Of a DNA stretch of 64,000 bases, positions 30,974 to 33,817 are shown piece by piece. Made by a program: the position numbers and the translations under genes. The notes under the pieces were generated by a model. It did not search any database. It saw only the letters and a program-made list of their open reading frames with translations, and was not told the DNA's origin. The stretch's first letter is position 1, and every line of letters starts with the position of its first letter. This DNA comes from Spirochaetota bacterium (lineage in GTDB: Bacteria; Spirochaetota; Brachyspiria; Brachyspirales; JACRPF01), in assembly GCA_016214035.1 (NCBI GenBank), contig JACRPF010000005.1:62001-126000 (forward strand). Direction: 5' to 3'.

Positions 30974-30978
30974 TTGCT

Positions 30979-31028
30979 CGGACAGTTGGAGGACAGCGGG
31001 GCATGCCCCGCTGTCCTCCAACTGTCCG
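30979..31028. repeat. 50-bp perfect palindrome after nrdD
   Basis: Beginning six bases past the nrdD stop, 25 bases read identically on both strands with no mismatch, centred on GCATGC between 31003 and 31004. The arm contains GGACAGCGGGG. As RNA it is a 23-bp hairpin with a tetraloop. There is no T-run, so it is not a textbook terminator; it could still end transcription or protect the 3' end. GCTGTCCTG is repeated right after it. Confidence 0.7.
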
Positions 31029-31059
31029 CTGTCCTGTTAATACATTAGCCCAGCATTTC

Positions 31060-31111: not shown

Positions 31112-32089
31112 ATGCAGAAAATAAAACGTTTATTCCTGTTGACCGTAGCGCTGCTCCTGCTCGGTACCACGTTGCCGCAGCAGAAACTGTATGCGGGACC
31201 GATGGCTGCCGGTTTCATACTCATCATCCTTGAACTTGGAAGTCTGGGGCTTGTTGCACTTGGAGTTGTAGTCACAGCTGCTATATATCATGGAGTTAAT
31301 GAGAATATGAAAAGCGGGCAGCTTGAATTCGAAAAGAGACTAAATTCCTTGCAGAACGTACTGTGGAAAATATATAAAAAAGATGGAACTAAGGTTTTGG
31401 CCGTCAGCCTTACACGTGATGAATATAATAACTATTGGCTGAAGGATAGCTCCGGAAGGATGTTTACATTGAATCAGGACGATATAAATTTCGTTCGCTG
31501 CTTTTATGATTCGGAAGAGAGCATATTCACTTATTCTGACAATTCGGTATTACGGACGTCGGGGAACACGATCTCGATAGCCGGAGATATTATTCCAGGC
31601 GGAACATATTATGAGTCTTCGCTCTTTAACTTTTCTGTAAGATACAGTATGCCATTGCCGTTGAGATTTGAGCTTGGTGTAGGTACCCGCTTTTCACTGT
31701 GGGAATCATCCGGACGTATTTCACTGAGATCACTCCATGCCTTTTCCGATGTCCGTTGGTATCCATTCAGCAAAGAGCCGAAAGATTTTTTTATTCAAGC
31801 AGCATTGTCTGCAGGAGTATATCACTTTATTCCCAATCCGTTTTTTTACAATGCTAGTCAGTCGGAGTCGTATAGTGCATTGTGTGATGGAAGCTTCTAT
31901 GTCGGTTGGAAATTTGAATGGCTTCCGTTGTTTCTTACTACTGCGATAGGTGTTTCCGAGACGGTCCAATACAATATCAATTCAAAACAATTTGCTCAGG
32001 GTTGGTCTGTTCTCCTTCGCTGCGAGATTGGACTTGATTTCAGTACGACGACGACCCCTGCGGCATACATCGCATCGAATTATAAGTAA
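31112..32089 (+). CDS. Hypothetical exported beta-barrel-like protein
   Basis: A 325-residue protein starting at the ATG at 31112, which follows a good promoter and opens a signal peptide (MQKIKRLFLLTVALLLLGTT). A second hydrophobic helix follows (about 32-58), then a charged stretch (EFEKRLNSLQNVLWKIYKK) and, from about residue 165, alternating amphipathic strands with many aromatic ends (RFELGVGTRFSLW, FSDVRWYPF, SFYVGWKFEW, SVLLRCEIGLDF), the look of an outer-membrane barrel. I recognise no named family. GC content is lower in its middle than in the flanking genes. The gene-poor repeat region follows at once. Confidence 0.65.
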   Translation: MQKIKRLFLLTVALLLLGTTLPQQKLYAGPMAAGFILIILELGSLGLVALGVVVTAAIYHGVNENMKSGQLEFEKRLNSLQNVLWKIYKKDGTKVLAVSLTRDEYNNYWLKDSSGRMFTLNQDDINFVRCFYDSEESIFTYSDNSVLRTSGNTISIAGDIIPGGTYYESSLFNFSVRYSMPLPLRFELGVGTRFSLWESSGRISLRSLHAFSDVRWYPFSKEPKDFFIQAALSAGVYHFIPNPFFYNASQSESYSALCDGSFYVGWKFEWLPLFLTTAIGVSETVQYNINSKQFAQGWSVLLRCEIGLDFSTTTTPAAYIASNYK

Positions 32090-32131
32090 GAACTGCTGGG
32101 CACGGAATTGCAATAAACGGCTCAACAAGCC

Positions 32132-32362
32132 GAAGCAGTGGCATAATGCCTTGAAGCAATGATGCAACGAGTAAAAGCAACCGCTCAAAGAGTCGAAGCA
32201 ACGGTATAATGAGTGGAAGCAACCACAGAACAAGCTGAAGCAGCCGGTTAATGAGACGAAGCAGCCGCGCAATGACCAGAAGCCAGTGTATAATGAACGG
32301 AAGCAACGGACGAATGACAGAAAGCGGCGATAGAACAACCGGAAGCGACCGCCAAAGAATAG
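32132..32362. repeat. Array 1: eleven 21-bp degenerate tandem repeats
   Basis: Eleven units, each exactly 21 bases, begin with GAAGCA or a close variant (32132, 32153, 32174, and so on to 32342) and share a second block near AATGA at positions 14-18. Units differ at many positions, yet not one base has been gained or lost. A twelfth, weaker unit may precede (32111-32131). On the plus strand every frame soon meets stops; on the minus strand all three frames stay open over much of the array, which is a property of such repeats and not proof of coding. Together with array 2 and the element at 32709 it fills the 828-base gene-free interval 32090-32917. Confidence 0.85.
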
Positions 32363-32416
32363 GGGTGATGTAAATGCAATACCGCACAGACGATATGCTT
32401 GATTGAACCATCATTG

Positions 32417-32647
32417 TTCCCTATCGCTTGGACACTATTCCCCATGGAACGGATGTCATGCGCTGATGCATGGAGTACGTTCCCTGCTGCACGGATAATA
32501 TTCCCTGCTGCATGAGTGTTCTGCGCTCACGCACGGATGATATTCCACAGCGCACGGTTTATATTCTCTCAAGCACGGATATTGCGCGATAGTGCACGAC
32601 CTCTATTCCCCATTGCACGAACGTTATTCACCATTTCATCGGCGTTC
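32417..32647. repeat. Array 2: eleven 21-bp degenerate tandem repeats of a different sequence
   Basis: Eleven units of exactly 21 bases starting at 32417 (TTCCC or variant) with a second block GCACGGAT around positions 10-17. Length, unit number and strict register equal those of array 1, 54 bases away, but the consensus is different. Read on the plus strand the units spell a degenerate heptapeptide of the type F-P-x-A-R-x-I/L in ten of eleven units, with one TGA (32513-32515) inside unit 5 and no good start codon upstream. Confidence 0.85.
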
Positions 32648-32708
32648 AATTCCATTATATATGGGGGGGGGAGCGGAGCGAACGAGTAACCACGTATACC
32701 GCGTCATG

Positions 32709-32866
32709 GCGGGCGTAGCGGGGGTGTTTTCCTCACGCGTCAGCGTTGTGCGAGCATAGCCTACGCAACAACGTGGAGAAAGCTATTATGCCGGAAAAGC
32801 AATAACGGGGAATATACGGAAGTGAGTTACGCTGATGCGTGAGGAAAATACCTCCGCGAAGCCCGC
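32709..32866. repeat. 158-bp element with 38-bp imperfect inverted arms
   Basis: Arms 32709-32746 and 32829-32866 are reverse complements with 5 mismatches in 38 bases; both include TTTTCCTCACGC. The 82-base centre shows no gene. It lies downstream of the LuxR-type gene and after the repeat arrays. It is the third element of this size class in the window. Confidence 0.65.
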
Positions 32867-32917
32867 GCCAGCGCGGGGATGCGTGTCCCGAGTGAGCGCA
32901 GCAGGGGCGGGCGGGTC

Positions 32918-33817
32918 TTACCGCTGCAGCGACTTTTCCTTTATCAGCAGCATCAACTCCACCCTGTTTCTGATATAGCACTTGCGATATATGTTGTACA
33001 CATGCCCGTCAACGGTCTTCTTTGAGACATTGAACGTCTTTGCTATTTCCCGCGAGTTTTTCCCCTTCACCAACGCCTGAATGATTTCCTGCTCACGCGC
33101 CGTCAGGCCGTAGAGATGGATGAAATGTTTGGTCAGTCCGCCGTCGGTGGGAACAGGTCTGTAAAATACGCGTACGGTATATACCAGCATGCCGAGGTTC
33201 CAGAGGAGCAGATACGCTCCGTAGAGGAATGCCGCATACCGGCCATGGGCGAGTATCTGCTCGATTATCGCGAAAGGCAGCACGAGTACGCTTACCGCCA
33301 CGAAATAGAGCATGGGGCGCTTTGAAGCGTCGGCAGCGATACTCCGTGCATGCATGAGCGCCATGACGAACCAGGCGCAGTAGAACAGCCGCATGATGAT
33401 GTCGATAATGCGTATCGTGAGCGTCTCGGTCCCGGCGATGAAGCCCGCTATCGACGGAACAACGATGGCGAGGAAGAGCGCAATGGAAACCAGCAGGAAT
33501 ATCGATGAATAGCGCTTTTTTACTTTTCGTCCGATAAGCGTGAGCGTAAAATGCGGAGCGGCATACATGGTGGCGCTGAGGCAGAGGGCGAGTATGATAA
33601 GGTCGATGTGGTATGTGGTGAGCGGAGAGGGGACATAGCGCTGAATAAAAAAAGCCAATGCGTATACCAGAAAGAATACGATGGACGTGCTGAGCAGAAG
33701 CAGATAATAGCCGAAATACGCTGTCGTATAACGCGGGTACAGGAGCAGCGCCGAGACGAACGATGCCACGCTCACGAGGACGGTTATGGTGTAAAACCAG
33801 AATGCGAATTGTTCCAT
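32918..33817 (-). CDS. Membrane-anchored LuxR-type transcriptional regulator
   Basis: About 299 residues from the ATG at 33817, directly followed by a membrane region of seven predicted helices (MEQFAFWFYTITVLVSVASFVSALLL onward to about residue 220), then a C-terminal LuxR/GerE helix-turn-helix (LYGLTAREQEIIQALVKGKNSREIAKTF, VSKKTVDGHVYNIYRK, about 232-295). A DNA-binding domain tethered to a multi-helix membrane sensor suggests it reads a membrane or extracytoplasmic cue. The frame is open 141 codons further upstream, but that part is Arg/Ser-rich, overlaps the next gene and lies upstream of a good promoter, so it is discarded. AAGGAG is 13 bases before the ATG, which is longer than usual. 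Confidence 0.8.
   Translation of the reverse strand: MEQFAFWFYTITVLVSVASFVSALLLYPRYTTAYFGYYLLLLSTSIVFFLVYALAFFIQRYVPSPLTTYHIDLIILALCLSATMYAAPHFTLTLIGRKVKKRYSSIFLLVSIALFLAIVVPSIAGFIAGTETLTIRIIDIIMRLFYCAWFVMALMHARSIAADASKRPMLYFVAVSVLVLPFAIIEQILAHGRYAAFLYGAYLLLWNLGMLVYTVRVFYRPVPTDGGLTKHFIHLYGLTAREQEIIQALVKGKNSREIAKTFNVSKKTVDGHVYNIYRKCYIRNRVELMLLIKEKSLQR

Follow-up and report, generated by a model that had tools for sequence, protein, structure and literature searches.

Introduction

Two neighbouring tandem arrays in the genome of a Spirochaetota bacterium, assembled from diverged units and bearing different consensus sequences, raise the question of what holds every one of their units to a length of exactly 21 bp. 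An earlier sequence-only reading of the window (the whole 64,000-nucleotide stretch of DNA that was analysed) described them as matched twin sets of eleven units in perfect register, took the constancy of their period to mean either selection on length or a templated origin of the units, and held that no described feature is known to have such a form. The arrays and their immediate surroundings comprise the following features:

31112..32089, plus strand: gene for an uncharacterised signal-peptide/membrane protein, with about 20-40 bp between its end and array 1
32111..32362, no strand: array 1, with 11 complete 21-bp units (32132-32362) and a weaker unit from 32111
32396..32647, no strand: array 2, with 11 complete 21-bp units (32417-32647) and a doubtful unit at 32396
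32672..32920, no strand: imperfectly palindromic dispersed repeat of about 245 bp, directly after array 2
32918..33817, minus strand: LuxR-type regulator-like gene, named by eye from its C-terminal sequence without a profile

Form of the Two Arrays in the Window

The existence of two arrays at 32132-32362 and 32417-32647, each of 11 units of 21 bp, was borne out, and internal indels are absent from both (0 in array 1 and 0 in array 2). Their 21-bp periodicity is far beyond chance: against 2000 dinucleotide shuffles, the mean identity at lags 21, 42, and 63 is 0.648 in array 1 (shuffles 0.316 ± 0.023, maximum 0.397) and 0.610 in array 2 (shuffles 0.279 ± 0.022, maximum 0.362). TRF picks up the window arrays only piecewise. 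Conservation is clustered in certain columns beyond what even drift would leave (simulation p = 0.0002 for array 1 and p = 0.008 for array 2). The consensus sequences, GAAGCARCSGnnnAATGAnnn for array 1 (with columns 2-5 and 14-15 invariant) and TTCCCTATTGCACGGATGTTA for array 2, differ as had been read, and with a motif similarity of 0.26 against a null of 0.29 they are unrelated; a common origin of the two arrays was rejected for want of any such similarity. The idea of matched twin elevens did not survive, given the unrelated motifs, an offset from array 1 to array 2 of 285 bp (13 x 21 + 12) that leaves no common register, and partial extra units; the figure of exactly eleven is itself soft because a further unit starts at 32111 in array 1 and, arguably, at 32396 in array 2. 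Dyad symmetry of the units was looked for in both arrays and not found, both being non-palindromic, and alternation of even and odd units was likewise absent (p = 0.79 and 0.23).

The gene at 32918..33817 is convergent on the arrays, which therefore lie 3' of both of their neighbours. For the gene neighbouring the arrays, a search of named genomes yielded no relatives; within the same genome, a homologue of the 31112..32089 gene directly follows another 21-bp array (L057:7437-8552, contig C21). No cas-like gene was found beside the arrays among the gene calls, which came from a home-made codon-score caller. A strong hairpin at 30978-31029, just after a ribonucleotide reductase-like gene, gives chance matches to eukaryotic miRNA families in an Rfam scan and is probably a terminator.

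A Genome-Wide Class of 21-bp Arrays

The window's own genome (G000) is a 5.2-Mb draft of 22 contigs with an estimated contamination of 4.65%, so that a few of its contigs could be foreign. In the periodicity scan that had been proposed for intergenic DNA, 1.24 Mb of this genome, taken without selection, was searched for tandem periods of 10-70 bp, the period-21 detector and its thresholds being set by the analyst and multiple comparisons being handled by permutation tests only. All 11 intergenic array loci (the window counted once) have a period of 21, with many different consensus sequences among them, whereas a control genome from the same order, scanned over 400 kb, has intergenic arrays with periods of 14, 16, 17, 21, 25, 27, 29, and 38; the constrained period is therefore a property of the genome and not of the locus. 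The mostly coding repeats of the same sample have periods of 12, 42, 54, and 63 besides 21. That the period is constrained is thus upheld by the scan, and the period recurs beside the protein-family genes of distant genomes that are described below. Pairing and a count of 11, by comparison, do not define the form, other arrays of the class being unpaired and of about 5 to 22 units, and the perfect register holds within arrays 1 and 2 but not in general, since L027, L122, and others show phase shifts. By form, the window arrays belong to this class.

Four contigs of the draft break inside 21-bp arrays (the start of C1 at L023, the end of C7 at L073, the end of C15 at L214, and the start of C16 at L215), and long homogeneous arrays are therefore probably collapsed or missing in the assembly. 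Control genome G018 contains two high-identity intergenic arrays of period 14 (L149:13276-13541 and L152:10268-10537).

A Small Helical Protein Family Beside the Arrays

The first lead to a partner was that two arrays adjoined genes for one kind of small protein (MALTETxxREFAQRIL...). A homology search recovered 15 copies of this family in the window's genome and 4 in the sister genus; 29 further genomes from the order gave no copy. An alignment search added distant members from a remote family within the phylum and from Elusimicrobia bacterium CG06; another Elusimicrobiota genome holds about 12 copies, and the range given here rests on samples of each phylum. A longer family of 258 aa has three copies in the window's genome, each directly followed by an array. 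Profile comparison did not establish homology between the 120-aa and 258-aa families (E 0.02-0.11); the predicted models of both run alike as helix, loop, long helix, and helix, and that of the 258-aa protein looks internally doubled (comparison of its N and C halves gives E 0.004, with a low probability).

The AF2 model of the family is all-helical, a long helical hairpin with a pLDDT of 92, in which no recognisable DNA-binding fold was seen and for which there was neither a structural match in the PDB at E <= 0.001 nor a significant match among viral structures. Comparison with Pfam, PHROGs, NCBIfam, PADLOC, and PDB sequences gave either nothing or weak, scattered, chance-like hits, and phages, plasmids, and viral contigs gave no match. 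One match among PDB sequences, to the designed repeat protein 8etq (2e-6 over 31 residues, no stretch of which passes alone), was read as composition. No literature on such arrays or on the family was found in a search that covered subscription papers and preprints thinly. The small helical proteins are an unannotated and uncharacterised family, and no described family fits them.

At many loci a gene read by eye as an ECF-type sigma factor stands divergent from the family gene (L063, L065, L067, L073, L076, and L078 in the window's genome; L064 and L068 in sister genus G001), and a sigma-like gene is also nearby at L087, in another family. A cluster at 31-40 kb of contig C21 (L008, L009, and L042) brings together fragments of RHS/YD-repeat genes, a family gene accompanied by an array, a transposase-like gene, and the dispersed element in several copies. 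The dispersed element, which in the window directly follows array 2, occurs about 15 times in the genome, whole or fragmentary, with copies 68-84% identical (L002-L018), carries long imperfect inverted repeats, and lies in several instances within about 1-4 kb of family genes that have 21-bp arrays; it has no Rfam match and is possibly a MITE- or REP-like element.

Association of Genes and Arrays

When about 1.5 kb on each side of every family gene was examined, with 21 required as the best period, an array was found near 34 of the 49 genes, compared with 21 of 351 control windows from the window's genome in which genuine arrays were included (Fisher 2e-23). The starting loci in that genome had been picked for having arrays; the 31 loci elsewhere were reached only through protein homology, and an array accompanies 17 (Fisher 2e-11). 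A detectable array is absent at 15 of the 49 genes. Recurring in three families of Spirochaetota (f1, f38, and f40) and in Elusimicrobiota, the association of gene and array is present in at least two phyla. Since most gene-linked arrays follow their gene on its 3' side, autoregulation of a promoter in the classical sense is not the role that suggests itself, and the 3' or convergent position of many arrays favours an architectural, insulating, or silencing role over simple promoter control.

Motif similarity between arrays tracks protein identity (Mantel p = 0.0002), a correlation carried for the most part by the close pair L077/L079 and by the group L064/L065/L067. Within this group, L064 keeps the motif of L065 and L067 in another genus, with proteins that are 66-75% identical. 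Part of this correlation could be common descent of the gene plus its array and not recognition.

Arrays without an adjacent family gene also occur, those of the window among them. Five such loci in the window's genome share a motif with a gene-linked array:

L044, resembling L081: similarity 0.89
L027, resembling L064 and L075: similarity 0.9
L133, resembling L077 and L079: similarity 0.86
L138, resembling L074: similarity 0.89
L061, resembling L076: similarity 0.76

Array 2 has a sister in the same genome on contig C22 (L213:5750-5979; similarity 0.88, z 9.4), and the assembly break between the end of C15 and the start of C16 holds a less similar relative (0.58, z 3.9); no family gene was found beside either in the DNA examined. 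For array 1 there is only a moderate relative, on contig C169 of the sister genus (L219:3270-3416; similarity 0.64, z 4.2). Assignment of the window half-sites to other motif classes, at an uncorrected z of about 3, was set aside as too weak to use.

Structure of the Repeat Units

Dyad-symmetric units are found in about 14 of the 19 single-domain, non-homogenised arrays (p < 0.05), a count from which homogenised arrays were excluded after the fact. Strongly homogenised arrays cannot be scored for dyad symmetry. The self-reverse-complement correlation in dyad-symmetric arrays is often 0.6-0.94, and AcaGAAgAAcgntTaTTCtgT, GGnGTAcGtTcAaCgTAcnCc, and nTGTAGAgnnnncnTCTaCAn are examples of their units. 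Covariation between half-sites was not found (z between -1.8 and 1.9); the half-sites vary independently, which would be expected of DNA sites recognised by a symmetric dimer but not of an RNA stem. Some arrays fold strongly as RNA (L027, L064, L042, and L080), and no significant fold was found in the window arrays, L023, L039, L057, or L069. An RNA hairpin as a common feature of the arrays was rejected, as several do not fold and half-sites do not covary; the window array region itself gave no Rfam covariance-model match even at E <= 1.

The arrays of the 258-aa proteins stand apart in not being significantly palindromic (p 0.08-0.83), and all three, at L039, L057, and L083, have a 42-bp super-period (p = 0.016 in two of them and 0.040 in one). 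If the predicted doubling of the 258-aa protein is correct, it would, as a conjecture from these three cases, fit an asymmetric site.

What the Arrays May Be

The best explanation, to which we assign a probability of roughly 0.5, is that the arrays are phased 21-bp DNA sites predicted to be bound by the small all-helical family, both locally and in trans. A site of 21 bp corresponds to two helical turns, so that bound units would line up along the same face of the DNA. The family protein would bind the array as a dimer and coat it into a phased filament, the gene-less arrays, including the two in the window, would serve as its targets in trans, and the outcome may be a local silencing, insulating, or chromosome-organising complex. 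Such arrays are probably maintained by concerted evolution, with whole units gained or lost and the motif drifting along with its binder. In favour of this explanation are the gene-array association in distant genomes, the dyad symmetry of most diverged units, the independence of half-sites, the agreement of motif with protein identity, the gene-less arrays whose motifs match gene-linked ones, and the position-specific conservation in arrays 1 and 2. Counting against it are a predicted fold without recognisable DNA-binding features, the 3' placement of most gene-linked arrays, the 15 family genes at which no array was detected, the non-palindromic units of arrays 1 and 2 and their want of a neighbouring family gene, and the possible share of common descent in the motif-protein correlation.

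Two other functions can be set against binding. The arrays might be transcribed and cut to 21- or 42-nt RNAs that load onto the helical protein, forming a guide- or scaffold-RNA system like TIGR-Tas, a reading that our analysis makes unlikely. TIGR arrays too adjoin a gene for a helical protein, and their repeats, alike at any one locus, differ from locus to locus (PMC12045711); the present arrays are often 3' of the gene, their conserved blocks alternate with variable stretches of 3-9 nt, and those of the 258-aa proteins alternate with a period of 42. Yet the half-sites are without covariation, neither window array folds significantly or alternates, the period is 21 and not about 36, the family has neither a Nop-domain match nor a structural match, and symmetric double-stranded dyads suit DNA binding better. 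A coding origin, with 21 bp equal to seven codons and the arrays encoding heptapeptide-repeat proteins or being their decayed remains, is highly improbable: some frames do stay open across an array, but in nearly all arrays examined the information content shows no dependence on codon position, most frames contain stops that differ between arrays, and the units of many arrays are palindromic. The sequence-only reading had named descent of both arrays from one degraded repeat-protein gene as a finding that would overturn it; no consistently open frame was found.

The arrays could also have no function at all, being selfish or neutral satellite DNA that descends from an ancestral gene-plus-array unit and keeps its period by inertia, units being added or dropped only as wholes. 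Strong homogenisation at L023/L063, L069, L044, L117, and L215, which points to active turnover, agrees with this, as do the dispersed gene copies, the transposase-like genes that adjoin some arrays, and the contigs that break at arrays. It is nevertheless rather doubtful, as diverged arrays keep position-specific conservation and dyad symmetry, motifs persist across genera, one motif class is dispersed at unlinked loci, and the period is common to Spirochaetota and Elusimicrobiota. If the arrays are instead bound by the helical family, the whole could amount to an undescribed system, present in at least two phyla, of multicopy helical-protein genes, each with a satellite-like array of 21-bp dyads phased at two turns, together with arrays of the same motif at unlinked loci that would be targets in trans; we regard this fuller description as tentative, at slightly worse than even odds. 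The system would in effect be bacterial satellite DNA with its own paralogous satellite-binding proteins.

Comparison with Known Systems

Eukaryotic satellite DNA likewise has monomers of fixed length that evolve in concert and fall into motif classes at unlinked loci, and it has satellite-binding proteins, whereas the arrays described here are bacterial, have 5-22 units, and come with several paralogous candidate binders, each encoded next to an array of its own. CRISPR repeats are near-identical, with unique spacers and cas genes, unlike the 21-bp units here, which have diverged and are not set apart by spacers as long as those of CRISPR. Archaeal Borg elements likewise carry many independent tandem arrays that are partly intergenic, but in Borgs the copies are perfect, and of the intergenic unit lengths just 14-38% are divisible by three (PMC9879509), whereas the present arrays hold to a period of 21 throughout and are built of diverged units. 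Closest in kind are the centromere arrays of plasmids and the TIGR-Tas arrays, each of which fails a tested defining feature. In the plasmid systems parC/ParR, tubC/TubR, and omega/parS, tandem short sites are coated by a small dimeric protein, of the ribbon-helix-helix or another known fold, that works with a motor protein (PMC5016525). Arrays of the present class may resemble them in that, at 34 of 49 family loci though not in the window, tandem sites lie near the gene for a small protein for which binding is predicted. They differ in that this protein is modelled as an all-helical hairpin without a match to known binding folds (ribbon-helix-helix, winged helix), no motor NTPase gene was noticed beside the family gene, and the copies are chromosomal and numerous, varying in motif at a single fixed period. 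TIGR units consist of two alternating 8-12-nt repeats with 9-nt spacers, yielding 36-nt RNAs that accompany a Nop-domain protein (PMC12045711); the likeness lies in an array that adjoins a helical-protein gene, with repeats conserved at a locus and variable across loci and with variable stretches between conserved blocks, and the difference in a 21-bp, mostly dyad-symmetric unit and family proteins in which Pfam detected no Nop domain. The view that no described feature has this form stands, none having been found in the databases and literature searched.

Were binding proven, a place among iterated-site arrays would be arguable; no described family fits now. Should the arrays make RNA instead, they would represent a new array-based RNA system. 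If the proteins do bind the arrays, they would constitute a new family with a readable code and many natural array-binder pairs in one genome, and would thereby offer a natural data set for the co-evolution of DNA motif and protein, as well as a satellite-like means of organising or silencing the bacterial chromosome.
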